Position numbers and translations under genes: made by a program. The notes beneath the pieces were generated by a model. The model was not told the DNA's origin and made no database searches. It was given only the letters and a program-made list of their open reading frames with translations. From Gordonia asplenii (lineage in GTDB: Bacteria; Actinomycetota; Actinomycetes; Mycobacteriales; Mycobacteriaceae), in assembly GCF_012933505.1 (NCBI RefSeq), contig NZ_JABBNB010000035.1:1-64000 (forward strand): a stretch of 64,000 bases of DNA, given 5' to 3'. Below, piece after piece: positions 33,911 through 62,495 of this stretch; positions within the stretch are counted from its first letter, which is position 1; each line of letters starts with the position of its first letter.

Positions 33911-34423
33911 CAGGCTATCCACTGCACGACCCGGACCCAACTCACCAACGCAACCACCGCACACACACCCAACACCAGCCTCGTGCCGACCACGTACGAC
34001 AAAGGCGCCCTTCGTACGCGGCTCGGGGAATCGAAAAATGGGATCGGGGCGCGCGGCTGAAACGAAGCGCTAGCGAAGTGCAAGACGCGCGGGGGTCCCC
34101 GTTCTGCCCATTTTCGAGTCCCCGAGCCGCGCACGACGGCCGCCGAAAAGTACCCACACCAAACGAAAGAACAAGACGTCGAACACGAGACGACCCCCGC
34201 ACCACTCCCGAAACGGGGAGCCGAAGGCGGCCTGACGGGGCCGCGGTACGGGGGTCGGGTGGTCACCTGGAATTCGCTAAAGCGACTGTGCGCGCAACGA
34301 ATTGCAGCTTGGACCGTTCTAGCGGATGACCACCTCACGTGTCGCTAAGTCATACAACTTCAGACCACCTCCTTCCTTGTGTACCGACGAACCTACGCCG
34401 CACCGCGACGGCCCGCAACGGAT
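33911..34423. repeat. Spacer with a long imperfect inverted repeat (34017-34131)
   Basis: No gene is supported between the isomerase and cydC. CGCGGCTCGGGGAATCGAAA plus AATGGG (from 34017) is complementary, with one mismatch and one indel, to CCCATTTTCGAGTCCCCGAG plus CCGCG (to 34131). Inside lies GAAGCGCTAGCG, a motif also seen near 13530. Just upstream, at about 33990-34019, CGTACGACAAAGG can fold against CCCTTCGTACG. ACCACGTACGACAAAGGC repeats ACCACGCACGACAAAGGC near 13548. This looks like another member of the dispersed palindromic repeats. Confidence 0.65.
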
Positions 34424-36115
34424 TTATCGAACGTCTCCGATCGCACCGTTTTCGGCGAGAGTGATGACTCGATCGGCACCGTGGTCGGGCGGCAGCCGGT
34501 GGGTGACCACGACGACGCTGCGCTGCGGTCCGAACAACTCGCGCCGCCCGAAGATGTCGCGCAACACGTCGTCGGCGTCGTCGGGGTCGAGGTGCTCGGT
34601 CGGTTCGTCGAGCAGGACGACCGGTGCTCGATGCAGCAGCGCGCGGGCCAGCAGCAGTCGCCGACGTTGCCCGCCACTGAGTGCCGCCGTCCCGCCGGCC
34701 AGCACGGTGCCGACGCCGTCGGGCAGGCCGTCGACCCAGCCGCCGAGACCCACCGCACCCAGAGCATCGACGATCTCCTCGTCGGTCGCGTCACCGCGCG
34801 CGACGCGCAGATTCTCTGCGACCGAGGTCGTGAACACGTGCGCATCGTCGGCGAAGTAGCACGTCGACGCCCCGAGATCGGTACCGAGCGAGGTGGTCAC
34901 CGCACCGGACCGCGGCTCCAGCAGACCCGCCATCGTCAGCAACAGCGCCGTCTTGCCGACGCCGCTCGCCCCGACGACGGCGACTCGTTGACCGGGTGAC
35001 AGGGTCATCGTCAGCGTCGATGCACTCTCCGACGTGGGCCAGCCCCATCGCAATCCGCGGCAGTCGAGACCGGTGACCCGGTCGTCGACCGTGACGTCGT
35101 CGGCGACCGCGAACTCGTCGATCTCCGCGGCGGTCAGCTCTGCCGACCCGGCGTCGTCGATCAGCGTCAGAATCCGACGCGCGGCCTGCCGACTGCGCTC
35201 GAGTTGCAGACCTGCCTCGGTCAGCGGTGCCGTCGCCTCGAATGCGGACAGCGGCAGCAGGATCAGTACGCCGAGAGTCATCGGGCTCACTCCGGGATCG
35301 CCCGCGAGGCCGATGCCGATCAGGCACGCCGCCACCAGCGAAACCCCGAGTGCCAGCGGCGTTGCCGCACTTCCCCACGACTGCAGTCGTTGTCCCCGGT
35401 CGGCCGCGTCCACCGCCAACCGCTGCGTTTCGTCGATGCCGGCGAGCACCGTGCCCCGACGTCGGGCCACCGCCAATTCGTCGGCGTGCCATAGTGCGAG
35501 TGTTACCGATTCGGCGAGATCCGCCCGCGCCCGCGCACTGCACTCGACGACGTCGGCGGCACCGCGCGCCGCGAGGGTCGGCGCCGCGACGCTGCTGATC
35601 AATAGTGCGACGGCCAGCACCCCGGCGGCCGGAACTGACACGAAGGCCATGATCACCACTGCCGCAACGTTGGTCACCGCCGCGATGCCGATCGGGATCA
35701 CTCCGCGGATCAATGCGTTGCCGATGTCGTCGAGGTCGGCGCCGGTGCGGGTCAACAGGTCGCCGCGCCCGAGCAGCACCGAGTACGACGGGTTGCCCGC
35801 CGCCAACGCGACGAAGATGCGCGAGCGCGCCGACGCCATCGCCCGCAGCGCGAGATCGTGGGTGGCGAGCCGTTCGAGGTAGCGAAATAGACCGCGCGAA
35901 ATACCCAGTGCCCGAACGGCTGTGATCGCGACCGAGAGGTAGAGGATCGGCGGCATCTGCCAGGCACGCGTGATGAGCCATGCGCTCAGTGCCGCGAGTC
36001 CCAGCGCGCTCAGCGCACCGCCGATACCCAGCAGGAGTGCTGCCAGGACCGGCCTCGGCCGCACGCCGAGGTAACCGAGGATCCGCCGCAACGATCGGTC
36101 ATCGGGCCGCGACAT
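34424..36115 (-). CDS. cydC: Cysteine/glutathione-type exporter subunit CydC
   Basis: Half of the heterodimeric ABC exporter CydDC needed to assemble cytochrome bd. The 563-aa protein has six membrane helices (LAALLLGIGGALSALGLAA, IPIGIAAVTNVAAVVIMAF and others). The ATPase has Walker A GASGVGKTALL, signature LSGGQRRRLLLARA and Walker B VVLLDEPTEHLDP. The switch segment is VTHRLPPDHGADRV. ATG 36115 has GGAGG five bases upstream; a GTG six bases earlier has none. It overlaps the end of cydD by 17 bp. Last gene of cydABDC. Confidence 0.92.
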   Translation of the reverse strand: MSRPDDRSLRRILGYLGVRPRPVLAALLLGIGGALSALGLAALSAWLITRAWQMPPILYLSVAITAVRALGISRGLFRYLERLATHDLALRAMASARSRIFVALAAGNPSYSVLLGRGDLLTRTGADLDDIGNALIRGVIPIGIAAVTNVAAVVIMAFVSVPAAGVLAVALLISSVAAPTLAARGAADVVECSARARADLAESVTLALWHADELAVARRRGTVLAGIDETQRLAVDAADRGQRLQSWGSAATPLALGVSLVAACLIGIGLAGDPGVSPMTLGVLILLPLSAFEATAPLTEAGLQLERSRQAARRILTLIDDAGSAELTAAEIDEFAVADDVTVDDRVTGLDCRGLRWGWPTSESASTLTMTLSPGQRVAVVGASGVGKTALLLTMAGLLEPRSGAVTTSLGTDLGASTCYFADDAHVFTTSVAENLRVARGDATDEEIVDALGAVGLGGWVDGLPDGVGTVLAGGTAALSGGQRRRLLLARALLHRAPVVLLDEPTEHLDPDDADDVLRDIFGRRELFGPQRSVVVVTHRLPPDHGADRVITLAENGAIGDVR

Positions 36116-37781
36116 GCGCACCTCCGACGTCGACGACGTGATCGGCCGCCGCCCACCATGATTCGCGGTGACTGATCACAATGGCGGTGCACCCGCGGGC
36201 GACTCGGGCGCGCACGGCGTCGATCACCGCATTCGACGCCTCGTCGTCGAGATGGGCGGTCGGTTCGTCGAGCAGGAGCAGCGGCGCCGACGCCGCCAAG
36301 GCGCGCGTCAAACCGAGCCGTTGGCGTTGTCCCGCCGACAGTCCCACGCCGCCGGCACCCAGCCGCGTCTGCAGACCGGCCGCCAGCGACTCGACGACCG
36401 CGCCGAAACCGGTAGCGGTCATGGCCGCGTCGAGGCCATCGGGGGTCACCTCGGCGAACAGGGCCAGATTCTCCGCGACGGTGGCGGGCGCAATGGCCGG
36501 ATGTTGTGGCAGCCAGGCGAGTTGGGAGCGCAGGTCCTCGACGTCGACGTCACGCAGCGACACGCCGCCGACGCGCACGTGCCCGGAATAGTCGCCGATC
36601 AGTCCGAGCAGGACGGCCAGTGCCGTCGACTTGCCCGCGCCGTTCGGTCCACGCCACACCGACAGTGTTCCCGGTGGAATCGACACCGATAATCCATTGG
36701 GCGCCATGCCGTCTCGGCCGTCGACGGAAAGGTCGTCGAACTCGATGGCCGCGTCACGAAGCGCAACCCGGTGTCCCGGCGCAGACTTCGGCCGGTCGTC
36801 GCCGATCAGTTCGAAGACGTCGTCGGCCGCGGCCAGTCCGTCTGCCGAATTGTGAAACTGTGCGCCCACCTGGCGCAGTGGGAGGTACGCCTCGGGCGCC
36901 AGAATCAGCGCGAAAACACCTGCGAACAACGACATTTCGCCGTAGACCAGCCGGACGCCGATGCTCACCGCGACCAAGGCCACGCACAGCGTCGCCAGCA
37001 GCTCGAGGACCGCGCCGGAGAGGAAGGCGACCCGCAGCGTCGCCATCGTCGAACGCCGCCACCGCTGCCCCAGTTGCTCGACCTGCTTGGCGGGGCGATG
37101 CACCCGGTGCAGCGCACGCAGTGTCGGAATTCCGGCGACCAGGTCCATCAGCTGGCTCGAGAGGCGGCTCGTCGCAGTGAGTTTCGCCGCGGTTCGGTCA
37201 CGCGTCATGAGTCCGATCAGCACCATGAACAACGGAATCAGTGGCATTGTGATGATGACGATCACCGCCGACGGCACGTCGACGACCGCCATCACCACGA
37301 TCATCGCCGGTGTGACGACGACCGAAAGCACCAGTGCCGGAACATATCCGGACAGATAGGGCGCAAGGTCGTCGAGCCCGCGGAGTACGACGGTCGCCGC
37401 ATGGTCGCGCACGGCGAGCAGTCGTCGCGGTGGGGTGCGCCGCGGATCGCTCAACGTGTCGACCGCCTGGCGTCGGAGATCCGCGATCACCAGATCCGCG
37501 GCACGCTGCGAATATCGTTCGCGCACATAGTGAACCGCGGTCCGCACCGCCACGGCGATGACCAACACGATCAGCTGGGTGCGCTGCGCCTCGAGCGAGC
37601 GCGCGCCGGCGTCGACGATGAGTTCGGACAGGATCGACGCGGTGGCGCCCGCGATGACGACGACGCACGTGGCCGTCGCGACCGCGAACAACACCGTCGC
37701 CGCGACATATCGTCGGGCTGCCGGCGAGCTGCGCAGCAGCCGGGGATCCAGCGGCGGTCGCCGCGTTGCCGCGCGGGTCAC
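36099..37781 (-). CDS. cydD: ABC exporter subunit CydD
   Basis: Partner of CydC. The GTG at 37781 overlaps the cydB stop as GTGA; the frame stays open far upstream, but that part is antisense-like and unrelated. The 560-aa product has membrane helices from VAATVLFAVATATCVVVIAG onward. The ATPase shows Walker A GPNGAGKSTALAVLLG, signature LSAGQRQRLGLTRAL and Walker B LLLLDEPTAHLDD, with switch ISHRESWWAAAD. The coupled order cydA-cydB-cydD-cydC is the usual actinobacterial operon for bd oxidase and its assembly transporter. Confidence 0.92.
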   Translation of the reverse strand: MTRAATRRPPLDPRLLRSSPAARRYVAATVLFAVATATCVVVIAGATASILSELIVDAGARSLEAQRTQLIVLVIAVAVRTAVHYVRERYSQRAADLVIADLRRQAVDTLSDPRRTPPRRLLAVRDHAATVVLRGLDDLAPYLSGYVPALVLSVVVTPAMIVVMAVVDVPSAVIVIITMPLIPLFMVLIGLMTRDRTAAKLTATSRLSSQLMDLVAGIPTLRALHRVHRPAKQVEQLGQRWRRSTMATLRVAFLSGAVLELLATLCVALVAVSIGVRLVYGEMSLFAGVFALILAPEAYLPLRQVGAQFHNSADGLAAADDVFELIGDDRPKSAPGHRVALRDAAIEFDDLSVDGRDGMAPNGLSVSIPPGTLSVWRGPNGAGKSTALAVLLGLIGDYSGHVRVGGVSLRDVDVEDLRSQLAWLPQHPAIAPATVAENLALFAEVTPDGLDAAMTATGFGAVVESLAAGLQTRLGAGGVGLSAGQRQRLGLTRALAASAPLLLLDEPTAHLDDEASNAVIDAVRARVARGCTAIVISHRESWWAAADHVVDVGGAHVAAR

Positions 37782-38812
37782 GCGCGCAGCGACGGCAGCC
37801 CGATCGACGGCGGGATCTGCTCGATCGAAATACGTTGGCGGAACACCCAATACGACCAACCCTGGTAGGCGATCACGACCGGCGTGATGAAGCATGCGGC
37901 CCAGGTCATGATGGTCAGCGTGTAGTGACTCGACGACGTGTTCTCGACGGTCAGGTTGTAGGCGGGATTCGTGGTGGACGGCAACACATTCGGGTACAGC
38001 GACCCGAACAGGGTGATCACGGTGCCGATGATCGCGATGGTCGTCGCCGCGAACGCCAGCCCTTCGGCACGACGCAGCGTCGCCGCCACCGCGCCGACGG
38101 CGGCCAGTGCCGCGATCACCACCGGACCCCACGTCCAATCCTTGCCGTAGGCAAGCTGCGTCCAGAGCAGGAACACCCCGGCGACGACGAGCATCGCCAT
38201 AGACAGCCGCACCGCGTAGCGGGCGGCGTCGTCGCGGATCACGCCGGTCGTCTTCAGTGCCAGAAACACCGCTCCGTGCGTCGCGAAGACCAGCAGCGTG
38301 GTCAGACCACCGAGCAGCGCATAGGGATTGAGCAGTGTGAAGAACGAGCCGGTGAACTGGTGCTCGGCGTCGATCGGCAGACCGCGCACCACGTTGGCGA
38401 AGGCGACACCCCACAGCAGCGCGGGAATCCATGACCCCAGACCGATCCCGACGTCGCACCACATGCGCCAGCGCGGATCGTTGATCTTGCCGCGCCATTC
38501 GATGGAGACCACCCGCACGATCAGACCCACCAGGATCAGCAGCAGCGGAAAGTACATGGCGCTGAACAGCGTTGCGTACCAACCGCCGAACGCAGCGAAC
38601 ATCGCTCCGCCGGCGGTCAGCAGCCACACTTCGTTGGCGTCCCACACCGGGCCGATGGTGTTGAGCAGCACCCGACGCCGGGTGTCGCCCGACTCGTGTC
38701 CCCGGCCGATGAACGGCATCAGCATGCCGACGCCGAAATCGAACCCTTCCAAGACGAAGTAGCCGCCGAACAGCACCGCGATGACGACGAACCAGAACTC
38801 TGGCAATCCCAT
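37778..38812 (-). CDS. cydB: Cytochrome bd oxidase subunit II
   Basis: Integral membrane protein of 344 aa with about nine helices, starting MGLPEFWFVVIAVLFGGYFV. The conserved segment EGFDFGVGMLMPFIGR is characteristic of CydB, as are GPVWDANEVWLLTAGGAMFA and VLFATHGAVFLALKT. It follows cydA by nine bases. Together with subunit I it forms the quinol-oxidising bd-type terminal oxidase used at low oxygen or under respiratory stress. Confidence 0.96.
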   Translation of the reverse strand: MGLPEFWFVVIAVLFGGYFVLEGFDFGVGMLMPFIGRGHESGDTRRRVLLNTIGPVWDANEVWLLTAGGAMFAAFGGWYATLFSAMYFPLLLILVGLIVRVVSIEWRGKINDPRWRMWCDVGIGLGSWIPALLWGVAFANVVRGLPIDAEHQFTGSFFTLLNPYALLGGLTTLLVFATHGAVFLALKTTGVIRDDAARYAVRLSMAMLVVAGVFLLWTQLAYGKDWTWGPVVIAALAAVGAVAATLRRAEGLAFAATTIAIIGTVITLFGSLYPNVLPSTTNPAYNLTVENTSSSHYTLTIMTWAACFITPVVIAYQGWSYWVFRQRISIEQIPPSIGLPSLRA

Positions 38813-38821
38813 GTCTGACTC

Positions 38822-40399
38822 CTAGTAGGCGAACGAGAGTTGTTCGGGGGCATCGGTATCGGCGTCGTCGCCGCTGGACGACGCGACGTCGGAGCGGGCG
38901 CTGGGCCCCTCGATGACGTAGCGGCGCTGCAGGCCGAACCAGATGAGTCCGAGGATGCCGTAGAGCAACGTGAGCGTGATCAGCGACACCCAGACCGTGC
39001 CGGCGGTGTGGCGCGAGACGCCGTTGTGGACGAACATGCTGATCCGCAGCGGATCGAGGTTGTCCACCCAGTTGGGTGCGACGACCCACGGCTGGCGGCC
39101 CATCTCGGTGAAGATCCAGCCGGAACTGTTCGCCAGGAACGGCGCGGGGAGCATCCACAGCGCGAACAGCCCGAATCGTCGTGAGGAGATGACTTGTTTA
39201 CGTCTGGTGAACCACAGCCCGGCGAAGGCCAGCAGCGCCGAACCGACGGCCCAGGTGATCATCGCGCGGAAACTCCAGTACGTGACGAACAGGTTGGGCG
39301 CGAAGTTCTGCTCCGGCTTGTTGAATTCCTTCGCGTACTGCGCCTGCAGTTCTTTGACGCCCTGCAGTCGGGTGTCGAAGCGGTGATCGGCCAGGAACGA
39401 CAGCATGCCGGGCGCGGTGATGACGTGGTCGATGTTGTCGCAGTTGTTCTGGCGGCCGATGGACAGCACCGAGAAGCCCGCCCCGGTTTCGCTCTCGCAC
39501 AACGACTCCGCCGCCGCCATCTTCATCGGCTGCTGCTTGAACATGATCTGCGCCTGGAAGTCGCCGGTGATGAACAGCGCCACCCCCGCGACAACGGTGA
39601 GCCACAACCCGAATCGGGCCACCGGACGCCACAGGGTGTGCGCATCGTCGCGCAACTGCTCAGGCGTCGCGTCGACGTGACTCGGCGACACGGCGTCGGG
39701 GACCGGTTCGGCGTCGATCGCAGCGTCGGCCGCGTCCTCCAATCGCTTGGCACGCCACATGTTTCGCGCCATCCACCAGCAGCCGATGCCTGCGACGAAG
39801 GTCGACGCGGTGAGCAGTGCGCCCGCGATCACGTGGGGGAACGCCGCGAGCGTCGTGTTGTTGGTGATGACCGCCCAGAAGTCGTCCATCGCCGGGCGCC
39901 CACGGACCGGATCCCAGTGCACGCCGACCGGATGCTGCATCCACGAATTGGCCGCGACGATGAAGTACGCGGATGCGTTCACGCCGATGGCGACGAGCCA
40001 GATCGCCGCCAGATGCAGGCGTTTGGGCAGCCGATCCCAACCGAAGATCCACAACCCGATGAAGGTCGACTCCAGGAAGAACGCCACCAGCCCCTCCAAC
40101 GCCAGCGGCGCGCCGAAGACGTCGGCGACGAACCGGCTGTACTCACTCCAGTTCATCCCGAACTGGAATTCCTGCACGATGCCGGTCGCGACGCCGAGCG
40201 CGAAGTTGATCAGGAACAACTTGCCGAAGAACTTGGTCGCGCGCAGCCACTGCTCGTTGCCGGTCACGTACCAGACCGTCTGCATCACCGCGATCATCGG
40301 CGCGAGTCCGATGGTCAGCGGGACCAGAATGAAGTGATAGACGGTTGTGATGCCGAACTGCCATCGCGAGACATCCACGACGTCCAGGGCCAGATTCAT
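38822..40399 (-). CDS. cydA: Cytochrome bd oxidase subunit I
   Basis: Carries hemes b558, b595 and d. The start ATG 40399 gives MNLALDVVDVSRWQFGITTV, which matches known CydA N-termini; earlier in-frame starts add an unrelated stretch. The ligand-bearing SRWQFGITTVYHFILVPLTI (His for heme b595/d), KLFLINFALGVATGIVQEFQ and FGMNWSEYSRFVGDVF-like region are intact. The periplasmic Q-loop, about 256-390, is of the short type, and GRQPW follows it. 525 aa. First gene of cydABDC. Confidence 0.95.
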   Translation of the reverse strand: MNLALDVVDVSRWQFGITTVYHFILVPLTIGLAPMIAVMQTVWYVTGNEQWLRATKFFGKLFLINFALGVATGIVQEFQFGMNWSEYSRFVADVFGAPLALEGLVAFFLESTFIGLWIFGWDRLPKRLHLAAIWLVAIGVNASAYFIVAANSWMQHPVGVHWDPVRGRPAMDDFWAVITNNTTLAAFPHVIAGALLTASTFVAGIGCWWMARNMWRAKRLEDAADAAIDAEPVPDAVSPSHVDATPEQLRDDAHTLWRPVARFGLWLTVVAGVALFITGDFQAQIMFKQQPMKMAAAESLCESETGAGFSVLSIGRQNNCDNIDHVITAPGMLSFLADHRFDTRLQGVKELQAQYAKEFNKPEQNFAPNLFVTYWSFRAMITWAVGSALLAFAGLWFTRRKQVISSRRFGLFALWMLPAPFLANSSGWIFTEMGRQPWVVAPNWVDNLDPLRISMFVHNGVSRHTAGTVWVSLITLTLLYGILGLIWFGLQRRYVIEGPSARSDVASSSGDDADTDAPEQLSFAY

Positions 40400-40699
40400 T
40401 GACACGGTGTCCACTTCGGGCATCCCATCGCGAGCAGTGTGAGTCGAGCTGTTGACTATCCACGCATCTACTACTGAACGTAGTAGAAGTGTCACCTACG
40501 CTACGCCCGCCCGCGGCCTCCAACAAGGGACTTCTGTCCTCCTACGAGCGTCCGTGGGATGAATTGTCCCGCACATCGCACCCGCGCCGCGTCGGAAAAC
40601 CGAAATCCCACGCCGCGCCGTCGACCTCTTTCCGCAGTTCGCGGGCCATCACCGCAGCACGGCGCGCCGACGCGGACGCATCGTGTTGAATCCGCGGCG
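40400..40699. other. Gene-free cyd promoter region
   Basis: About 300 bp with no supported gene. It must contain the cydABDC promoter on the minus strand. I could not identify a clear -10/-35 pair or a CRP- or redox-type palindrome. A short direct repeat, CTACTACTGAACGTAGTAG (about 40470-40488), is an imperfect palindrome and the only candidate operator seen. Confidence 0.35.
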
Positions 40700-53062: not shown

Positions 53063-55348
53063 TCAGCCGAACAGAGCCGGCAGAGTCCGCTCGAACGTCT
53101 CGTGCAGTTCGGCCAGCGGAATCTCGAAATGATCTTGAACGCTGACCGCGTCGCTGCCCTGATCGACGACGCCGATCCGGGTCCACGGCATGCCGCGGGC
53201 ATCGAGCATCGCCGAAAAACGTGACTCCTCGGTCCGCGGAACCGCGACCAGCACGCGGCCCGCCGATTCGGAGAACAGGGTGACGAACGGATCCGCGCCC
53301 TCCGGCAGAATGACCCGACAACCGGTCTCACCGGCGAGTGCCGCCTCGATGACCGCCTGGATCAGTCCGCCTTCGGAGAGGTCGTGGGCGGCCGAGATCA
53401 GGCCGTCGCGAGACGCCGCTACCAGGATCTCACCGAGCAGCTGCTCGTGGGTGAGATCGACGATCGGTGGCACACCGCCGAGATGGTCGTGAACCACCTG
53501 CGACCAGATCGATCCGTCGAACTCATCGCGAGTCTCGCCGAGCAGGATCAGCGTCTCGCCGGGTTCGGTGCCAATACCGACGGGAGTACGGCGTCGCACG
53601 TCGTCGATCACACCCAGCACGCCGACGACCGGAGTCGGGAGAATCGGCGTCGAGCCGGTCTGGTTGTAGAAGCTGACGTTTCCGCCGGTCACCGGGATCC
53701 CGAGCTGTGCGCAGCCGTCGGCGAGGCCGCGGACCGCCTGCTGGAACTGCCACATCACGGCGGGGTCCTCGGGCGATCCGAAGTTGAGGCAGTTGGTCAC
53801 GGCCGACGGCGTCGCACCGGTCACCACGACATTGCGATACGCCTCGGCCAGCGCCAGTTGCGCACCGCGGTACGGATCGAGGAAGGTGTAGCGGCCCGAC
53901 GCGTCGGTGGCCAACGCGATGCCGCGACCGGTCTCTTCGTCGATGCGGATGACACCCGAGTCGGCGTTCTCGGCCAGGACAGTGTTGCCGCGGACGTAGC
54001 GGTCGTACTGCTCGGTGATGAACTTGCGGCTGCACAGCGCCGGGGAGGCGAGCAACTCCAGAGTCGTCGCGCGCAACTCATCCGACGTCGAGGGCCGGGC
54101 CAGGCCCGCTGTCGTCGACGCGATCACCTCGTCCTGCGACGCGGGCCGCTCGACGGGACGCTCATACACCGGGCCCTGGTGTGCGACGGTGCGCGGCGGA
54201 ACGTCGACGACGGTCTCGCCGTGCCAGTCGATGATCAGGCGCTCACCGTCGGTCACCTCACCGATCACCGTCGCCAGCACATCCCACTTGCGGCACACGT
54301 CCATGAAGCGCTCGACGTTCTCCGGCGCGACGACGGCGCACATGCGTTCCTGCGACTCGCTCGACAGCACCTCGGCCGGGGTCATGCCCACCGCGCGCAT
54401 CGGCACCAAGTCGAGGTCGATATGCATGCCGCCATCGCCGGCCGCAGCCAATTCCGAAGTGGCACAAGACAACCCGGCTCCACCGAGATCCTGGATCCCT
54501 ACCACGATGCCGGCCCGGTACAGGTCGAGACAGCACTCGATGAGCACCTTCTCGGTAAACGGGTCACCGACCTGCACACTCGGCAACTTCTTCCGGTTCG
54601 GCCCCGAATCGTCGCCGTCGTCGAACGTCTCCGACGCCAGCACCGACACACCGCCGATGCCGTCGAGTCCGGTGCGCGCACCGAACAGGATGATCTTGTT
54701 GCCCGCGCCGGAGGCGAAGGCCAGCTTGAGGTCCTCGGTGCGCAGCACGCCCGCGCACAGCGCGTTGACGAGCGGGTTGCCCTGGTAGCTCGGGTCGAAG
54801 ACGGTCTCGCCGCCGACGTTGGGCAGACCGAGCGAGTTGCCGTAGCCGGAGATGCCGCGGACCACGCCGTCGACGACCCGGCGAGTGTCGGGGTGATCGG
54901 CCGCGCCGAAGCGCAGCTGGTCCATCACCGCGATCGGGCGCGCGCCCATCGCCATGATGTCGCGGACGATTCCTCCGACACCGGTCGCCGCCCCCTGATA
55001 CGGCTCGACATACGACGGGTGATTGTGTGATTCGACCTTGAACGTCACCGCCCAGCCGTCGCCGATGTCGACGACGCCGGCGTTCTCCCCGATACCGGCC
55101 AACATGCGCGAACGCATCTCGTCGGTCGTGGTCTCGCCGAAGTACCGCAGGTGAACCTTCGACGACTTGTAGCTGCAGTGCTCAGACCACATGATCGAAT
55201 ACATCGCGAGCTCGGCGTCAGTGGGGCGACGACCGAGAATTTCCTTGATACGCGCGTACTCGTCGTCCTTGAGACCGAGTTCACGGTAGGGCTGGGGCAG
55301 ATCTGCGGAGGCCGCAGCGTCGGACACGGTATCGGGGTGTGCGCTCAC
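53063..55348 (-). CDS. purL: Phosphoribosylformylglycinamidine synthase, large subunit
   Basis: Fourth step of purine synthesis, converting FGAR to FGAM with PurQ and PurS. GTG 55348 is chosen because a leaderless TAAACT box lies seven bases upstream; it gives a 761-aa protein of the small-PurL type. Motifs: [16 protein letters not shown] near the N-terminus, the catalytic His in [40 protein letters not shown], and [17 protein letters not shown]. The second AIRS-like half contains [14 protein letters not shown] and [12 protein letters not shown]. purQ and purS are not in the window. Confidence 0.96.
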
Positions 55349-55355
55349 TCGGACC

Positions 55356-55361
55356 AGTTTA
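55356..55361 (-). promoter_or_regulatory. Leaderless -10 promoter of purL
   Basis: TAAACT on the minus strand followed by seven bases and GTG 55348; no ribosome binding site. It decides the purL start. Confidence 0.6.
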
Positions 55362-55644
55362 GGGGACGTCGTGGAGGTACCCCGACGCACGTGGGGCACG
55401 CCGACGACGTCGGCGCCGCGATCATCTCAGAGTCGGGTCGCGTCTGCTCGCCGTCACTTTCGCGCACGCTGGGTTCAATTCCCGACGGCGTACCGCGAGG
55501 TGGCGCAATGCCCTGCTCATTCGACGTACCCGCAGGTCGCGAGGATCGGCGTCCACGCCGGGGTGGCGTAATGACCGCAGGTGCGTCAAGGGTGTCTTCG
55601 ACGCCGCCCCGGCGCCTCGCCCAATGGCCCTACGCTGCCTATTC

Positions 55645-56409
55645 ATGCAGATCAGGACCGAAATCGGACGCGCTGACACACGCCGCGTCCGCGCTGACGA
55701 CGCCCGCGTCGTCAGCGACGTGCTGCGCCGCGGAATCGACCGGGGCGAGCACACCGGGTCATTGGACGAACGTGACCTGTCTGCGGAATTCGGCGTCTCC
55801 CGCAATGTGGTGCGCGATGCGCTGTCGATTCTCGCCGCGGAGGGGCTCATCGACCGTGCCCCGCGTGTCGGCACCCACGTCGTTCGACGCAAAGCCGAAC
55901 ACGGGCTCGACGCCCTGCGCGGATTGAAGGAGACACTCGTCAGTCACGGCGACGTCCGCAACGAGGTGCGGGTGGCGACACTGCTGCGGCCGCCTGCGGC
56001 GGTGGCCCGCCGGCTGCGCCTGGAGACCGGCGTCGAAGCCGTCTACATCGAACGGATCCGGCTCCTCAACGACGAACCGGTGAGCCTCGACCTGACCTAC
56101 CTCGTCCCCGACCTCGGCATCCCGCTGATCGCCCACGACATCGAGAACAACGATGTCTTCGCGCTGCTCGAACAGATCTCCGGACAGCGCCTGCACTCCG
56201 CGCAGCAAAGCGTCGAAGCCGCTAACGCCGACCCGCATTCGGCGGCCAACCTCGACGTTCCGCCCGGCACGGCCATCCTGCTGCTGGAGCGGCTCACTTC
56301 GCTCGGCCCGCACGCGCGGCCGGTCGACCTCGAATACATCCGTATGCGCAGCGATCGAATCTCGTTGCACGCCACAGCCTTCCGCGACACCATCAGATCA
56401 GGGGACTGA
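55645..56409 (+). CDS. GntR/HutC family transcriptional regulator (UTRA domain)
   Basis: The 254-aa protein has an N-terminal winged helix: LDERDLSAEFGVSRNVVRDA then LSILAAEGLIDRAPRVGTHV. The C-terminal UTRA ligand domain shows LRLETGVEAVYIERIRLLND and SLDLTYLVPDLGIPL. ATG 55645 is preceded by TACGCT eight bases upstream, a leaderless-type promoter; 21 bp of open frame before it is unlikely to be coding. Two bases separate it from the ferredoxin gene, so it is first in the operon and presumably controls the transport and redox genes behind it. Confidence 0.87.
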   Translation: MQIRTEIGRADTRRVRADDARVVSDVLRRGIDRGEHTGSLDERDLSAEFGVSRNVVRDALSILAAEGLIDRAPRVGTHVVRRKAEHGLDALRGLKETLVSHGDVRNEVRVATLLRPPAAVARRLRLETGVEAVYIERIRLLNDEPVSLDLTYLVPDLGIPLIAHDIENNDVFALLEQISGQRLHSAQQSVEAANADPHSAANLDVPPGTAILLLERLTSLGPHARPVDLEYIRMRSDRISLHATAFRDTIRSGD

Positions 56410-56411
56410 CC

Positions 56412-56639
56412 ATGACACTCATCAATACCCGCTCCGACGTTCCGGTCACCATCGACGAGTCACTGTGCATCGAGGGGTGCACATTGTGCGTGGAGGTGTG
56501 TCCCCTCGATTCGCTGGCCATCAACCCCGAGTCGGGCAAGGCGTTCATGCACGTCGACGAGTGCTGGTACTGCGGGCCGTGCGCCATTCGCTGCCCCACC
56601 GGCGCGGTCACCGTCAACATGCCCTACCTGCTGCGCTGA
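56412..56639 (+). CDS. AprB-like 2x[4Fe-4S] ferredoxin, 75 aa
   Basis: Two cluster motifs are visible: CIEGCTLCVEVCP (C-x3-C-x2-C-x3-CP) and CWYCGPCAIRCP (C-x2-C-x2-C-x3-CP). The order, the spacing segment LDSLAINPESGKAFMHVDE and the ending GAVTVNMPYLLR strongly recall the beta subunit of adenylylsulfate (APS) reductase, shortened at the C-terminus. It would pass electrons to or from the AprA-like flavoprotein at 59763-62495. The three ABC importer genes lie between the two redox subunits, which suggests one functional unit. Confidence 0.88.
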   Translation: MTLINTRSDVPVTIDESLCIEGCTLCVEVCPLDSLAINPESGKAFMHVDECWYCGPCAIRCPTGAVTVNMPYLLR

Positions 56640-56713
56640 TACCCGCCGAACATCACAGCACCACAACGTCTTTCACAGCCCGCTCAGCCCATCACAGCCC
56701 GTGAGGTTCCGCC

Positions 56714-58126
56714 ATGCCCAGAAACACTCCGCTCACTCGCCTCGCCCCGTTGTTCGCGTTGGTGACGGCGGCGACTCTCACCGTCGCCGGCTGCTCCCTG
56801 TCCGGCGACGACTCCGCCGACGCCACGCAGGTCGTGGTCGGGTACCAGTCCAAGACCATCAACACCGTCACGGCGGGCACGCTGCTGCGCGCCCGCGGTG
56901 ACCTGGAGAAACGTCTCGACGAAGTCACCGAGAAGACCGGCAAGCACTACAAGGTGCGCTGGGAGGACTACGACACCGGCGCACCCATCACCACCGGCAT
57001 GATCGCCGGAAAGATCGACATCGGCTCCATGGGGGATTATCCGTTGCTGATCAACGGGTCCCGTGCCGACGCCAACCCCGCCACGGCGACGTCGGTCCTG
57101 GCGGTCACCGGCTCGTCGCCCCGGGGATCGCTGAACATGGTTGTCGCCAAACCGGATTCGCCCATCACCTCGATCCGCGACCTCGCCGGCAAACGGGTGT
57201 CCGCGAGCGTCGGATCGGCTGGCCACGGCACCTTGCTCGCCGGCTTGAAGCAGGCAGGCATCGACGCCACCGACGTCGACATCACCAACCAGCAGCCACA
57301 GGTGGGGTCGTCCGCGCTGGAGGCGGGCAAGGTCGACGCGCTCGCCCAGTTCGTGGCATGGCCCGGCCTGCTGGTCTTCCAGAACAAGGCACGACTCGTC
57401 TACGACGGTGCGCAGCTGGGCGTTCCGACGCTGCACGGCACCATCGCGCGCAACGCGTTCACCAAAGGACACCCCGAGGTGATCGACGCGTTCCTCAAAG
57501 CGCAACTCGACGCCACCAAGGCACTGGCCGCGGACCCGCTCGCCGCCTCGCAGACCGTCGCCAAAGCCAGCGGCCTGCCCGCCGAGGTGGTCTACCTCTA
57601 CAACGGTCCAGGCGGCACCGACTTCAACCCGGCCCTCAAACCGTCGCTGATCGCCGCCCTCAACGGTGACAAGGCATACCTGAAATCCATTGGCTCCTTT
57701 CCCAATCCGGTCGATCTGTCCACCTTCGTCAACGACGGCCCGCTGCGCACGGCGGTGACCGAGACCGGCGGCGACTACACCGCACTCCTCAACCGAGCGG
57801 GCGGTCAGTCGGGGAGCGACTCCGTCAGCGGCGAGGCATCAGGCGAGGTCTGGTACACCGGCACCGAGACCAAGAAGGTTTCCGACGCCACCGCACTGCT
57901 CCGACTCGTACAGTCCGCCAGGGCATCCGGCGCCAAGATCACAGCGGCCTACATCACCGACCCCGTCCTGGGCACCCGCTGGTTCGCCGACCACTCCATC
58001 TGGCTGCACGACGGTGCGACTTACCAGGCGTTCACCACCGACGACAGCGCCCGAACCTACCAGCGGTCGCATCCGGGAGCCGTCGTGGTGAGCTACGACC
58101 AGGCGCTCACCGAGGTCAAGCAATGA
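56714..58126 (+). CDS. ABC transporter substrate-binding lipoprotein with C-terminal NosL-like domain
   Basis: The lipoprotein signal ends in VAGCSLSG (Cys near residue 27). Residues about 35-340 form an SsuA/TauA/NrtA-type binding domain: GYQSKTINTVTAGTLLRARG, IGSMGDYPLLINGSRAD, VSASVGSAGHGTLLAGL. After a linker, residues about 375-470 read AAYITDPVLGTRWFADHSIW, TYQAFTTDDSARTYQRSH and GAVVVSYDQALTEVKQ, which resembles NosL, a metallochaperone-like domain. At 470 aa it is about 130 residues longer than simple SsuA proteins. No family with this fusion is known to me. It overlaps the permease gene by four bases. Confidence 0.82.
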   Translation: MPRNTPLTRLAPLFALVTAATLTVAGCSLSGDDSADATQVVVGYQSKTINTVTAGTLLRARGDLEKRLDEVTEKTGKHYKVRWEDYDTGAPITTGMIAGKIDIGSMGDYPLLINGSRADANPATATSVLAVTGSSPRGSLNMVVAKPDSPITSIRDLAGKRVSASVGSAGHGTLLAGLKQAGIDATDVDITNQQPQVGSSALEAGKVDALAQFVAWPGLLVFQNKARLVYDGAQLGVPTLHGTIARNAFTKGHPEVIDAFLKAQLDATKALAADPLAASQTVAKASGLPAEVVYLYNGPGGTDFNPALKPSLIAALNGDKAYLKSIGSFPNPVDLSTFVNDGPLRTAVTETGGDYTALLNRAGGQSGSDSVSGEASGEVWYTGTETKKVSDATALLRLVQSARASGAKITAAYITDPVLGTRWFADHSIWLHDGATYQAFTTDDSARTYQRSHPGAVVVSYDQALTEVKQ

Positions 58127-59004
58127 CCGCCGGAACCTACCCGGACACGCTGCGCACGACCGGTCCGACGTCGTCCGCAGCGGCGCCGTCCGCAACCGCA
58201 GCGGCGACGACGCGCTCGGCGCGGGTGCCGCGCAGCTCGTGGCGCTGGCCGCTTCGGGTGGCGACAGTCGTTGCGGCACTTGCCCTGTGGCAGTGGCTCG
58301 CCACCGCCGACGTCGTACTGTGGCTGCACTTCGACACCATTCCGGCACCCACCGAGGTCGCGTCGGCGTGGTGGCGGCGGCTGCACGGCGGCGAGTACTA
58401 CCTCGATCTGGGGCAGTCGCTGATCCGCATCGGCGTCGGCTTCGCGCTGGCCACCGCGGTCGGGATTCCGCTCGGCATCGCGCTGGGCCGCTCGGCTCTC
58501 GCCGGCGACACCCTCGGCACGCTGACCGAGCTGGCCCGTCCCGTTCCCGCGATCGCGTTGGTACCCATCGCAATTCTGATCTTCCCGACCGACGAAGCGG
58601 GCATGGTGTTCATCACGTTCGTCGCGGCACTGTTCCCCATCGTCGTATCCACTCGGCACGCGGTGCGCGCGCTGCCCACGATTTGGGAGGAATCGGTCCG
58701 CACGATGGGCGGCACTCGACGCGACGTGGTGCTTCGGGTGATTCTTCCGGGCATCATGCCCGGTGTCTTCGGCGGGCTCTCGGTCGGCATGGGCGTGGCA
58801 TGGATCTGCTTGATCTCCGCGGAGATGATCTCCGGCCGCCTCGGCGTCGGGTACCGGACCTGGCAGTCGTACACCGTCGTCGATTACCCCGGCGTATTCG
58901 TCGGGATGTTCACCATCGCCGCCCTCGGTGTATTGACCTCGGGCGCAATCGAAATAGTCGGACGCCGCGTCACAGCGTGGCTGCCGCGCGGCGAGGAGCG
59001 CTGA
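58123..59004 (+). CDS. ABC transporter permease (SsuC/TauC/NrtB type)
   Basis: The 293-aa protein has a Thr/Ala-rich N-terminus and then six membrane helices from VATVVAALALWQWLATADVV. The EAA coupling motif reads WEESVRTMGGTRRDVVLRVI. SIGVGFALATAVGIPLGIALG-like helix 2 and LARPVPAIALVPIAILIFP follow the sulfonate/nitrate importer pattern. It overlaps the binding-protein gene (ATGA) and is followed by the ATPase after six bases. Confidence 0.92.
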   Translation: MTAGTYPDTLRTTGPTSSAAAPSATAAATTRSARVPRSSWRWPLRVATVVAALALWQWLATADVVLWLHFDTIPAPTEVASAWWRRLHGGEYYLDLGQSLIRIGVGFALATAVGIPLGIALGRSALAGDTLGTLTELARPVPAIALVPIAILIFPTDEAGMVFITFVAALFPIVVSTRHAVRALPTIWEESVRTMGGTRRDVVLRVILPGIMPGVFGGLSVGMGVAWICLISAEMISGRLGVGYRTWQSYTVVDYPGVFVGMFTIAALGVLTSGAIEIVGRRVTAWLPRGEER

Positions 59005-59010
59005 GGAAAC

Positions 59011-59766
59011 ATGAGCACCGACCTCACCCTGTCCGGCGTGACGCTGCGTCACGGTGCCCGCACCATCATCGACGATCTCCACCTCATCATTCCCAGCGGC
59101 GAGATCCTGGTGGTCACCGGGCCGTCCGGCTGCGGAAAGTCCACTCTGCTGCGGGCCATCGCGGGGCTGCGCCCGATCGACGCGGGATCCATTGCCGCCG
59201 ACGGCGATCCGGTCGTCGGAACCTCCCGCGACCGCGCGATGGTGTTCCAGGACGACGCCTTGCATCCGTGGCGTACCGTGCGCCGCAACATCGACCTCGC
59301 TCTCACCCTGCGCGGTGTTGCGCGCAAAGATCGCCGCGCCGAAGCCCATCGCTGGATCGCTGAGATCGGCCTCGACGGGTTCGCGGACCACCTTCCCCGG
59401 GAACTGTCGGGCGGGATGCGCCAGCGAGTCCAACTCGCGCGCGGCCTCGCCGGCGCGCCGCGCGCGGTGCTGATGGACGAACCGTTCGGCGCGCTCGACG
59501 CCCAGACGCGAACATCGATGCAGCAGTTACTGATTCGCACACTCGACGCCCATCCCGCCACCGTCGTCTTCGTCACGCACGACATCGATGAGGCGGTCCT
59601 CCTCGGCGACCGCGTCGTCGTTCTCGGCAACGCGGGCGAACCGGCGCGGGCGATCGTCCCGGTACCACACCCGCGCACGCCCGCCGCCGACAATTCGGCG
59701 GCGCGCGGCGCCGTCGCCGCCGCACTCACCGCCCCCGCCGGCACACACAGTAAGGCCATCGCATGA
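59011..59766 (+). CDS. ABC transporter ATP-binding protein (SsuB/TauB type)
   Basis: The 251-aa ATPase shows Walker [19 protein letters not shown]-loop FQDDALHPWRTVRRNI (typical of the nitrate/sulfonate/taurine group), signature LSGGMRQRVQLARGLAG, Walker B AVLMDEPFGALDAQT and switch FVTHDIDEAVLLGDRVVVLG. The ATG follows a GAGGAAAC ribosome binding site. Its stop overlaps the start of the AprA-like gene by four bases. Confidence 0.94.
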   Translation: MSTDLTLSGVTLRHGARTIIDDLHLIIPSGEILVVTGPSGCGKSTLLRAIAGLRPIDAGSIAADGDPVVGTSRDRAMVFQDDALHPWRTVRRNIDLALTLRGVARKDRRAEAHRWIAEIGLDGFADHLPRELSGGMRQRVQLARGLAGAPRAVLMDEPFGALDAQTRTSMQQLLIRTLDAHPATVVFVTHDIDEAVLLGDRVVVLGNAGEPARAIVPVPHPRTPAADNSAARGAVAAALTAPAGTHSKAIA

Positions 59767-62495
59767 GTTCACCTACCGAAAGCATTGCGCCGCAACCCTT
59801 CACGGCACCCGGCGTCGACGACGCGCAGCGCCTCGACTGCGATGTACTCGTCATCGGCGGCGGCACCGCCGGTTCGATGGCCGCGCTCACCGCAGCCGAG
59901 AACGGCGCGCGGGTGCTCCTTCTCGACAAGGCCCATGTCCGCCATTCCGGCGCACTGGCCATGGGCATGGACGGTGTCAACAACGCCGTCATCCCCGGGA
60001 AGGCCTCGCCGGAGGACTACGTCGCCGAAATCACCCGCGCCAACGACGGCATCGTCGATCAGCGCACCGTCTATCAAACGGCCACCAGAGGTTTCGCGAT
60101 GATCTCGCGGCTCGAACGCTACGGGGTGAAGTTCGAGAAGGACGAGTACGGCGAGTACGCGGTGCGCCGCGTGCATCGTTCCGGCTCGTACGTGTTGCCG
60201 ATGCCGGAGGGCAAAGACGTCAAGAAAGTTCTCTATCGGGTGTTGCGGCGCAAGGAGATGCGGGAGAAGATCACGATCGAGAACCGCCTGATGCCGGTCC
60301 GGGTACTGACCGAGAACGGTCGCGCGATCGGCGCCGTCGCGCTGCACACGCGCACCGGCGAGTTCTACGTCGTCGGCGCCAAGTCGGTCATCCTGGCGAC
60401 GGGCCCGTGCGGCCGGTTGGGACTGCCCGCATCCGGGTATCTGTATGGCACATACGAGAATCCGACCAACGCGGGCGACGGGTACTCGATGGCGTATCAC
60501 GCCGGTGCGGAACTGTCGGGTATCGAGTGCTTCCAGATCAATCCGCTCATCAAGGACTACAACGGCCCGGCGTGTGCCTACGTCGCCAATCCGTTCGGCG
60601 GCTACCAGGTCAACGCCGACGGCGATCGGTTCGTCGACTCCGACTACTGGTCCGGCGACATGATGAGTGAAGTGAAACACGAGATCGAATCCGCCCGCGG
60701 CCCGATCTATCTGAAGGTCTCACATCTGCCCGAGGAGACGGTCGACACCCTCGAGTCGATCCTGCATACCACCGAGCGGCCGACGCGCGGCACCTTCCAC
60801 GCCAACCGCGGCCACGACTACCGCACCCACGACATCGAGATGCACATCTCCGAAATCGGTTTGTGCAGTGGGCATTCGGCGTCGGGGGTGTGGGTCGACG
60901 AGAACGGCGCCACCACCGTCGACGGCCTGTACGCGGCCGGCGACCTGGCCTGCGTGCCGCACAATTACATGATCGGAGCATTCGTCTACGGCGAGCTCAC
61001 CGGCCAGCACGCGAGCGAGCGGGCCAAGCACGTCGACGCCCCGGCGACATTGCCCGCCGATCAGATCGCCGATGCGCACGAACTCATCTACCGCCCGCTG
61101 CGCAATCCCGACGGTCCGCCGCAGCCGCAGGTCGAATACAAACTTCGCCGCTTCGTCAACGACTACGTCGCGCCGCCGAAGGCATCGACGAAGCTCGGCA
61201 TCGCGATCGAGACCTTCGAGCGTATGCGCGGCGAAATCGCCGAGATGGGCGGGCGCACCCCGCATGAGCTGATGCGCTGCGCCGAAGTGAACTTCATCCG
61301 CGACTGCGCCGAACTCGCCGCGCGCAGTTCGCTGACCCGCACCGAAAGTCGTTGGGGCCTTTACCATCAGCGCGACGACATCACCGAACGCGACGACGCG
61401 AACTGGGGCTATCACCTCAATGTCCGCAAGAACTCGGCGGGCGAGATGGAGTTCCTCGGTCGCCCGGTCGCTCCCTATCTCGTCCCGGTCGAGGGCCTCA
61501 ATCATCTTCCACCGCAGGATCGTTCGGTCATCGACATCGAGCAACCCGAGGTGCGCAGCGGGCCGGCGGGTACGCCCGGCGTCGTCGACTCGTCGACGGC
61601 CCAGTCGGGAGTCGCCACCGAACCCGAGGCGCGCGAACCACTCTCGCCGTGCATCGTCGAACTGGTGTCGCTGGAGTCGCCGACGCTGGACGACCTCAGC
61701 GACTACCTGACCGACGCCGATGCGACCGTGCGGCGGACGGCGATCGCCACGCTGACCGAGTACACGCCGGAGGGGTTCGAGGGCGCGCTGGCGTCCGCGC
61801 TGGGTGATCCCGACGCTGGGGTGCGTCAACTAGCCGTCGACTCCCTGCGGGAACTCGTCGAGGTACTCGCCGGAAAGCCGCCGTTCGTCGAGGCGTTGCG
61901 CGACGCCGCTGGGTCGGATGACCATCTGGTGCGCGCCGGGGTTCTGGATCTGCTGCGCGCGCTCAAGGAAGGCGATCCGTTGTTCTTCGCCGGCTATCTC
62001 ACCGACGCGCATCACCGGGTGCGGATCGAGGCGATCCGCGGGCTCGTGTCCCTCGACGCCGCGACGCTGATCGCCGTCGCCGCCGACGACGTCAACCGCG
62101 AGGTGAGAGTCGTTGCGGCACAGGGGCTGGCGACCGTCGGCTCCGGTGTCGTCGCGATCCGCAAGCTGGCCGCCGACCCCGACCCGCTGGTTCGCGCCGC
62201 CGGACTCGCCGCCTTGGCGACCCTGGGTGAGGCCGACGTCGACGCGAAGCTGCTGCGAAAAGCGTTGCGCGACAATGCCTGGCAGGTGCGCAAGGGAGCC
62301 GCGACCGGGCTGGCCGTCGCGCCCGGGGCGGAGACGGTCACCGCCCTGGAGCCATTGGTGACCGACCCGCACGGCGACGTACGAAAGGCTGCGATCACGA
62401 CGCTGCGCCCCTGGGCAGATCAGCCCGGCGTCGAAGCATTGTTGGAACAAGCGCGGACCGATGAAGACGCGGATGTACGCGCGGTGGCGCGGTAA
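59763..62495 (+). CDS. AprA/fumarate-reductase-like flavoprotein fused to HEAT repeats
   Basis: The 910-aa protein has residues 1-600 as an FAD flavoprotein of the succinate dehydrogenase/APS reductase alpha class: DCDVLVIGGGTAGSMAALTA (FAD loop), HSGALAMGMDGVNNAVIPGK, SVILATGPCGRLGLPASGYL, and TTVDGLYAAGDLACVPHNYM. A linker (about 600-630) leads to about eight HEAT/PBS-lyase-like repeats of 30 residues up to the C-terminus (TVRRTAIATLTEY, GVRQLAVDSLREL, EVRVVAAQGLATV, LVRAAGLAALATL, QVRKGAATGLAVA, DVRKAAITTLRPW). AprA is normally about 620-660 aa without repeats. Coupled to the importer, with an AprB-like ferredoxin upstream. The substrate is unknown; a sulfur oxyanion or organosulfur compound is the leading idea. 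Confidence 0.88.
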   Translation: MSSPTESIAPQPFTAPGVDDAQRLDCDVLVIGGGTAGSMAALTAAENGARVLLLDKAHVRHSGALAMGMDGVNNAVIPGKASPEDYVAEITRANDGIVDQRTVYQTATRGFAMISRLERYGVKFEKDEYGEYAVRRVHRSGSYVLPMPEGKDVKKVLYRVLRRKEMREKITIENRLMPVRVLTENGRAIGAVALHTRTGEFYVVGAKSVILATGPCGRLGLPASGYLYGTYENPTNAGDGYSMAYHAGAELSGIECFQINPLIKDYNGPACAYVANPFGGYQVNADGDRFVDSDYWSGDMMSEVKHEIESARGPIYLKVSHLPEETVDTLESILHTTERPTRGTFHANRGHDYRTHDIEMHISEIGLCSGHSASGVWVDENGATTVDGLYAAGDLACVPHNYMIGAFVYGELTGQHASERAKHVDAPATLPADQIADAHELIYRPLRNPDGPPQPQVEYKLRRFVNDYVAPPKASTKLGIAIETFERMRGEIAEMGGRTPHELMRCAEVNFIRDCAELAARSSLTRTESRWGLYHQRDDITERDDANWGYHLNVRKNSAGEMEFLGRPVAPYLVPVEGLNHLPPQDRSVIDIEQPEVRSGPAGTPGVVDSSTAQSGVATEPEAREPLSPCIVELVSLESPTLDDLSDYLTDADATVRRTAIATLTEYTPEGFEGALASALGDPDAGVRQLAVDSLRELVEVLAGKPPFVEALRDAAGSDDHLVRAGVLDLLRALKEGDPLFFAGYLTDAHHRVRIEAIRGLVSLDAATLIAVAADDVNREVRVVAAQGLATVGSGVVAIRKLAADPDPLVRAAGLAALATLGEADVDAKLLRKALRDNAWQVRKGAATGLAVAPGAETVTALEPLVTDPHGDVRKAAITTLRPWADQPGVEALLEQARTDEDADVRAVAR

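Follow-up and report, generated by a model that had tools for sequence, protein, structure and literature searches.

The DNA analysed here, called the window, is a stretch of 64,000 nucleotides from Gordonia asplenii (contig NZ_JABBNB010000035.1, positions 1 to 64,000), and we describe in it an operon of six tightly packed plus-strand genes at 55645-62495. Judged by sequence, its parts are an ATP-binding cassette (ABC) importer of the sulfonate type, a flavoprotein that resembles the reductases of adenosine 5'-phosphosulfate (APS) and 3'-phosphoadenosine 5'-phosphosulfate (PAPS), a small ferredoxin of the 2x[4Fe-4S] type and a HEAT part that belongs to this redox pair. All six genes had been named in an earlier note made from the letters alone, and open reading frame (ORF) and domain searches recover each of them at the position given there (E-values or bit scores in brackets):

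55645-56409, plus strand: GntR/UTRA regulator (PF00392, 1.6e-12; PF07702, 2.3e-28)
56412-56639, plus strand: ferredoxin of 75 amino acids with eight cysteines, similar to AprB and the PAPS reductase beta subunit but without the AprB tail (PF12838, PF00037; 3gyx_B, 3.8e-08; 8a8o_C, 1.4e-07)
56714-58126, plus strand: substrate-binding lipoprotein of the SsuA/TauA family with a C-terminal NosL-like domain at about 57827-58108 (TIGR01728, 147.7 bits, missing the cut-off of 163.5)
58123-59004, plus strand: ABC permease of the NtrB/SsuC/TauC type (PF00528, 1.7e-18; NCBIfam models under their cut-offs)
59011-59766, plus strand: ABC ATPase of the TauB/NtrCD type (PF00005, 6.8e-30; PRK11248, 214 bits, under its cut-off)
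59763-62495, plus strand: AprA/PAPS reductase-like flavin adenine dinucleotide (FAD) protein fused to HEAT repeats, 910 amino acids (PF00890, PF02910, PF13646; 8a8o_A, 2.2e-57), with the FAD part at residues ~22-590 (59826-61532) and the HEAT part at residues ~630-910 (61650-62492)

The ATG at 55645 was found in six of six aligned upstream regions; the longest ORF of the regulator begins at 55624. The five junctions measure, in order, +2, +74, -4, +6 and -4 bases: the description of most junctions as two-base gaps or overlaps fits three of them and fails for the two others (+74 and +6). The operon is present once in its own genome of 6.64 Mb, and an Rfam search had no match inside it. Taken together, the six genes appear to form a self-contained uptake-and-redox module under control of the GntR protein.

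To define a comparison set, contigs were scanned for the flavoprotein; this gave at least 593 stretches, 578 of which code for a relative, and the best 80 loci were retained as the actinobacterial set. Conservation of gene order had been singled out as a decisive comparison, and at 78 of the 80 loci the six genes are found in identical arrangement, strand included, meaning that their grouping is not due to chance. The two exceptions are a locus that ends at a contig edge (L096) and a locus without the module's own transporter, where a different permease gene lies divergently (L105). L044 carries an extra ABC gene and one that looks peptidase-like, and in L046 and L062 genes that are presumably TnpB-like transposon genes separate the permease gene from the ATPase gene. 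Around the actinobacterial loci, the search for other conserved neighbours found no widespread partner, the next best being present at 15 of 80 loci. The module is an accessory unit. With the own genome counted, a flavoprotein above the curated cut-off is encoded by 13 of the 59 genomes examined in the genus, by 24 of 121 in the family and by 8 of 296 in a phylum sample; two more genomes of the genus hold the flavoprotein gene in broken pieces (L163 in G288 and L164 in G452), and these decayed copies indicate that the operon is being lost in places. Outside this set, a plasmid search returned 55 records, most of them 55-60% identical, from Burkholderiales, rhizobia, Acinetobacter, Acidithiobacillus, cyanobacteria and two actinobacteria. 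Of the 23 neighbourhoods opened from it, 17 are annotated and non-actinobacterial, one is actinobacterial and five have no annotation. In 14 of the 17, the module is accompanied by an ABC set whose binding protein is similar in length; of the remaining three, Nostoc has only a shorter binding protein nearby, and in A. caldus and on Mesorhizobium pMLa the ABC set is not adjacent.

The flavoprotein scores 1590.7 bits over residues 15-910 with NF010374 (PRK13800; cut-off 1196) and passes the curated cut-offs of both this entry and NF006131 (PRK08275). Both are single-gene entries with the name fumarate reductase, and no tested function was found for either. The composition had been thought undescribed; this holds for the module, for which we found no catalogue entry, but not for the flavoprotein-HEAT fusion, which NCBIfam already lists as NF010374. 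The module is thus conserved and only partly catalogued. When a profile of the family was searched against the PDB, the matches ranked in the order PAPS reductase alpha subunit 8a8o (7.3e-84), Archaeoglobus AprA (1e-59), SdhA (8.8e-38), Desulfovibrio gigas AprA (2.3e-36), FrdA (~1e-29) and NadB (~1e-28). The AprA model TIGR02061 is missed by far (129.2 bits, cut-off 641.75), but two APR-like control proteins miss it too; the SdhA/FrdA/NadB cut-offs are also missed (TIGR01812, 147.8 against 567.3 bits; nadB, 115.5 against 452.75). In a quick tree (all our trees are of this kind), the family stands apart from SdhA and meets the APR-like pair and one other flavoprotein (L027) at one unresolved fork (support 85), where the program gave a long-branch warning. 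The AprA/PAPS reductase-like assignment of the flavoprotein is therefore favoured, with 8a8o and Archaeoglobus AprA as its best PDB matches and a tree position close to APR-like proteins and apart from SdhA, although D. gigas AprA falls just behind SdhA and long branches meet at the fork. The points on which the earlier note had made its AprAB-like reading depend came out mostly in its favour, since the flavoprotein does not go with ordinary fumarate reductases or aspartate oxidase and the gene order is conserved.

The pocket gives a more specific picture. In AprA, as described in PMC2211403, Asn74 and His398 contact the sulfate oxygens directly, Arg265 and Trp234 contact sulfate through water, with Arg265 also holding phosphate and ribose, and His446 makes a phosphate/ribose contact. 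We counted the equivalents of these positions by hand on alignments of 104 flavoproteins (L001 and L014, the window's own protein, are excluded), using the contacts of the same paper; His398 was placed via 8a8o and the controls, the Archaeoglobus alignment being gapped at that column. All 104 members have Asn at Asn74 and His at both His398 and His446, and all 104 have Leu for Arg265 and Tyr for Trp234; they also have Glu for Tyr95, Val for Gln145 and never Glu at Glu141. The two APR-like controls keep Asn74, His398, Arg265 and Trp234 and differ at Tyr95, Glu141, Gln145 and His446, so that only Arg265 and Trp234 set the family apart from them. On these alignments, the direct sulfate contacts are kept in the family and the water-mediated ones are lost. 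This bears on the simplest explanation, that the pair is a true APS or PAPS reductase of assimilatory sulfate reduction. Its nearest solved structures, PAPS reductase and Archaeoglobus AprA, and the retained His446 would agree with such a function; Arg265 and Trp234, kept in both controls, are however replaced in every member, and an importer should be needless for APS and PAPS, which are made inside the cell. The changes at Tyr95, Glu141 and Gln145 decide nothing, as the controls differ there too. We consider this explanation extremely improbable: an APS reductase system is unlikely, and APS chemistry finds no support, given the two replaced residues. The rows of SdhA differ as well, with Thr at the Arg265 column and Tyr at the His398 column (8 of 8 each). 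An ordinary fumarate reductase, succinate dehydrogenase or aspartate oxidase was rejected because the cut-offs are missed, the tree separates the family from SdhA and the pocket columns differ; the catalogue name fumarate reductase (PRK13800) is probably a misnomer.

A sulfonate-type importer, as the SsuA-type binding protein named in the earlier note suggests, is upheld by the match of its ABC families and by a profile of the binding-protein family, which has its best match to TauA (6ssy, 8e-26), followed by SsuA. According to PMC6906117, Gln30, Gly61, Gly79 and Thr132 of TauA coordinate the sulfonate and Glu106 and Asp205 bind the amine. The equivalents of Gln30 and Gly61 are matched in 95 of 95 binding proteins (a weak Nostoc protein, L117, fell under the score filter and is excluded from residue and Cys counts); the Gly79 column has 85 Gly and 10 Ala and the Thr132 column 86 Ala and 9 Thr, a position where SsuA has Ser and the contact comes from the main chain. 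The Gln column was placed via a taurine-type protein of the relative G435, as the TauA fragment used begins after Gln30. At the equivalents of Glu106 and Asp205, all 95 proteins have Asn and His, and taurine was rejected as ligand of the module's own binding protein on this ground. The module thus shares with TauABC and SsuABC the families of binding protein, permease and ATPase and the sulfonate-coordinating Gln and Gly, but differs from them by Asn/His in place of the amine-binding Glu/Asp, by the NosL-like tail and by the absence of TauD or SsuD from the operon. Its binding protein would capture an SO3-bearing compound that is not taurine.

Some relatives have a different transporter. In G435, a genome of the same genus, the core of GntR, ferredoxin and flavoprotein adjoins a different, taurine-type ABC set (under curated cut-offs) together with a TauD-like dioxygenase, divergently arranged, and the taurine-type binding protein retains Glu and Asp; in G434 the same core is present and the intervening ABC genes are missing. 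The loci with such a transporter swap (L105, L151 of G434, and L150 and L162, both of G435) have the core, no ABC genes in between and a TauE gene beside the flavoprotein gene. In a cyanobacterium, a LysR regulator fused to an NMT1-type binding domain is encoded beside the module (L125:6394-8427) and may sense the imported ligand directly.

The residues of the pocket and of the binding protein also weigh on the possibility that the substrate contains no sulfur and that the flavoprotein reduces a C=C or other group of an imported organic compound, as members of the fumarate-reductase family do. The superfamily is rich in such reductases, the NCBI name is fumarate reductase, and UTRA-type GntR regulators often sense organic metabolites. 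The family is however not grouped with SdhA, which has Thr and Tyr where the Arg265 and His398 columns were compared, and the binding protein has retained its sulfonate-coordinating residues; a sulfur-free substrate is unlikely.

The ferredoxin had been described as AprB-like. Its eight Cys and a Cys-Trp motif are present in 98 of 98 family ferredoxins (L015 and L027 are left out of this count), the tryptophan of AprB beside a cluster Cys being Trp-B48 (PMC2211403). In a single-sequence PDB search, 3gyx_B and 8a8o_C are the top small-subunit matches, behind polyferredoxins and HdrA and with 1jnr_B lower, and the NCBIfam aprB model (TIGR02060) is missed with 28.8 of the required 135.65 bits, the C-terminal tail being missing at 75 amino acids. 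The profile search leans to AprB, as its alignment includes one APR-like beta subunit (L015); the single-sequence search is unaffected. The cysteine pattern thus agrees with the description and the model score and ranking do not, and we regard the ferredoxin as weakly AprB-like in sequence. Possible sources of electrons are encoded near some copies of the module: FdxA and a ferredoxin-NADP reductase in M. radiotolerans, FdxA and an FAD oxidoreductase in A. caldus and in the actinobacterial family relative G354, and FdxA in Variovorax. These neighbours favour electron input into the module. Matches to FdxA-like and FAD-oxidoreductase-like proteins (35-45% identity) also lie close 3' of the flavoprotein gene in two more actinobacterial loci, L040 and L108.

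A second group of neighbours relates to sulfite. On three cyanobacterial plasmids, genes for TauE/SafE and YeiH-type exporters are found downstream of the module, in Aquabacterium TauE/SafE precedes the module beside GntR, and TauE adjoins the flavoprotein gene in G435, G434 and L105. G354 has a single YeiH gene, which adjoins the operon together with a YeiE-like LysR regulator, and YeiH lies ~3 kb upstream of the operon in two Nocardia loci (L076, L094). YeiE and YeiH function in sulfite resistance in Salmonella (PMC12880088). Ten genomes, which were picked rather than random and include G354 and G435, hold 7 YeiH and 37 TauE genes in all, and with so few genes per genome, chance adjacency should be rare. 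The sulfite-exporter context is no more than suggestive. It would also agree with a pair that oxidises sulfite, or an intermediate related to it, and acts as a dehydrogenase in detoxification or in an energy-linked role, with electrons that exit via the ferredoxin: AprAB runs in both directions (PMC2211403), and the exporters and the YeiE-like regulator near some copies would suit the handling of sulfite stress. Such an oxidation appears improbable, since Arg265 with its contacts to sulfate and phosphate is lost, although His446 is kept, a dedicated importer would hardly make sense for sulfite detoxification, and the FdxA and reductase genes beside some copies fit electrons entering.

Our preferred reading, which we hold tentatively and with somewhat less than even confidence, is that the operon encodes a ferredoxin-fed reductase acting on an imported compound that bears an SO3 group and is neither APS nor taurine, and that this group is released as sulfite. 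The binding protein and ABC importer would bring in this compound. In the cytosol, electrons from NAD(P)H would reach the 8-Fe ferredoxin by way of a ferredoxin reductase and a ferredoxin, which a few relatives encode next to the module, and would move on to FAD via the conserved Trp. N5 of the reduced FAD would then attack the sulfur, kept in place by the conserved Asn and His, as in APS reductase; flavin N5 attack on sulfur is the scheme given for APS and PAPS reductases in PMC10322725. The remainder would leave, and decay of the adduct would yield sulfite that is then assimilated or exported. Among possible substrates, sulfate esters, activated sulfonates and S-sulfo compounds would be suitable. 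Substrate and direction are both inferred from the comparisons above, as is the role of the HEAT part treated below.

Several observations weigh against this reading. E. coli SdhA ranks just ahead of the D. gigas AprA (3gyx) in the profile search, and 7 of 8 SdhA rows share the Asn of the Asn74 column, which is thus not specific. As Arg265 and Trp234 both touch sulfate via water, their loss weakens the argument for an SO3 group, and the retention of His446 throughout fits poorly with a simple loss of the adenosine monophosphate side. Binding proteins of such families also serve nitrate, bicarbonate or pyrimidines. Sulfite-exporter genes are near only 3 of 80 actinobacterial loci (by tblastn with seven references, which may miss divergent genes) and 4 of 17 annotated others, the search of ten genomes for YeiH and TauE found no sulfite-exporter gene beside the operon in the window's genome, and in G435 the TauD-like gene could itself supply the sulfite. 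The direction of electron flow is read from a few lineages; the window operon has neither FdxA/oxidoreductase nor sulfite-exporter genes alongside, and a minority of lineages have them. Among open-licence PMC papers we found no functional study of the module.

The HEAT repeats of the flavoprotein, already noticed before, are verified by matches to PF13646 and PF02985. In all 17 annotated non-actinobacterial neighbourhoods, HEAT is a separate gene that accompanies flavoprotein and ferredoxin. These separate proteins match the window HEAT part with 2.6e-16 to 1.2e-05, which is weak proof for repeats. In G354, the GntR, flavoprotein, HEAT, ferredoxin, binding protein, permease and ATPase genes are all separate, and the HEAT protein is 41% identical to the window HEAT part. 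G354 branches below a clade of 13 fused proteins (support 99), indicating that it retains the older, unfused state, and on this tree the flavoprotein-HEAT fusion is derived. HEAT belongs with the redox pair. The suggestion that it might dock on the transporter was rejected as unlikely, because HEAT stays with flavoprotein and ferredoxin at loci where no such importer adjoins. By annotation, a DUF971-type gene occurs with the module in 9 and Mrp/NBP35 in 4 of the 17 neighbourhoods (domains were checked in three each). HEAT, with DUF971 or Mrp/NBP35 in other phyla, would most likely serve the assembly or protection of clusters or hold the ferredoxin on the flavoprotein. One could go further and see the core of the module as an iron-sulfur (Fe-S) assembly or protection device, in which HEAT, DUF971 and Mrp/NBP35 would deal with clusters and use the flavoprotein as their reductase, given that DUF971-type or Mrp/NBP35 genes are present in 13 of 17 annotated non-actinobacterial neighbourhoods (domains checked for six). 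Neither DUF971 nor Mrp/NBP35 is however found in the window operon, and the commonest partner is the sulfonate-type importer (14 of 17 neighbourhoods and 78 of 80 actinobacterial loci), leaving this a very unlikely explanation.

Release of sulfite by a ferredoxin-fed reductase thus remains our preferred reading, and it has a broader form that we consider possible but doubtful: the module, present in Actinomycetota, Pseudomonadota and Cyanobacteriota, may add a third functional class to the AprAB-type enzymes, one that is nucleotide-free and driven by ferredoxin, reductively releases sulfite from an imported organosulfur S(VI) compound and has, in HEAT plus DUF971 or Mrp/NBP35, a dedicated Fe-S targeting device. 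We take this combination to be reminiscent of the eukaryotic MMS19/HCF101 systems. The two known classes offer the closest comparisons. The PAPS reductase of Methanothermococcus thermolithotrophicus (8a8o) and the NF005331 group have, like the module, an FAD alpha and a 2x[4Fe-4S] beta subunit, the Asn, His and Lys-Asp motif and a Trp beside a cluster Cys, but the module differs from both by the replaced Arg265 and Trp234 equivalents, the added HEAT part and its own importer. Dissimilatory AprAB shares the two-subunit plan and the equivalents of Asn74, His398 and His446; the module has lost Arg265 and Trp234 in comparison, and its ferredoxin is without the AprB tail and far under the aprB model. 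Aerobic sulfonate use is known to rely on the oxygenases SsuD and TauD. If true, a reductive, ferredoxin-fed route would give soil actinomycetes, rhizobia, Burkholderia relatives and cyanobacteria a new means of mining organic sulfur, and would provide a function for proteins that many genomes list as fumarate reductase or succinate dehydrogenase. Sharp predictions that can be tested follow from the residue swaps, which are strict in both the enzyme and the binding protein.

The NosL-like tail of the binding protein appears to be a trait of the family, with PF05573 found in 10 of 20 aligned homologues (best E 1.2e-06), but the window's own protein, for which a NosL-like domain had been claimed, has no PF05573 match even at E up to 10. 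Two Cys of the tail (window residues ~372-394) are both present in 43 and both absent in 51 of 94 proteins, never single, and the window protein has none. Gain or loss only as a pair looks like a disulfide and not like a copper site; copper binding as a general feature of the tail, implied by the comparison with NosL, was rejected on this basis as unsupported. No nos genes were seen in the operon.

Upstream of the GntR gene are two copies of a short motif, each a possible GntR operator:

55499-55510, plus strand: upstream motif copy 1, GGTGGCGCAATG
55562-55573, plus strand: upstream motif copy 2, GGTGGCGTAATG

Of 78 related actinobacterial loci, 69 have the form GTGGCGN(A/T)(A/T)T 5' of GntR, as does 1 of 9 others, against a background rate of 0.0046 per 290 bp elsewhere in the loci. 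It is likely a dedicated operator, which the GntR protein would bind. A simple palindrome search found no shared operator. The genome has six sites of the exact form GGTGGCGYAATR, two at the operon; the four further sites are all within predicted longest ORFs, and at least one of them (C1:417502) is at the 3' end of its ORF, near the possible start of an acyl-CoA-ligase-like gene. The exact genome sites reveal no clear wider regulon, with a second target possible at C1:417502.

Elsewhere in the window, a gene divergent from the operon (53063-55399, minus strand) is presumably purL-like; a match to it is also near the operon in L037 and L038, indicating that these kin share the site. The ORFs at 34424-40495 (minus strand) resemble, as we take it, a cytochrome bd cluster (cydA, cydB and CydDC-type ABC genes). 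Just 3' of ABC genes that are presumably cydDC, Rfam places the actinobacterial small RNA Ms_IGR-5 (RF02471) at 34185-34382 on the minus strand with 95.1 bits.

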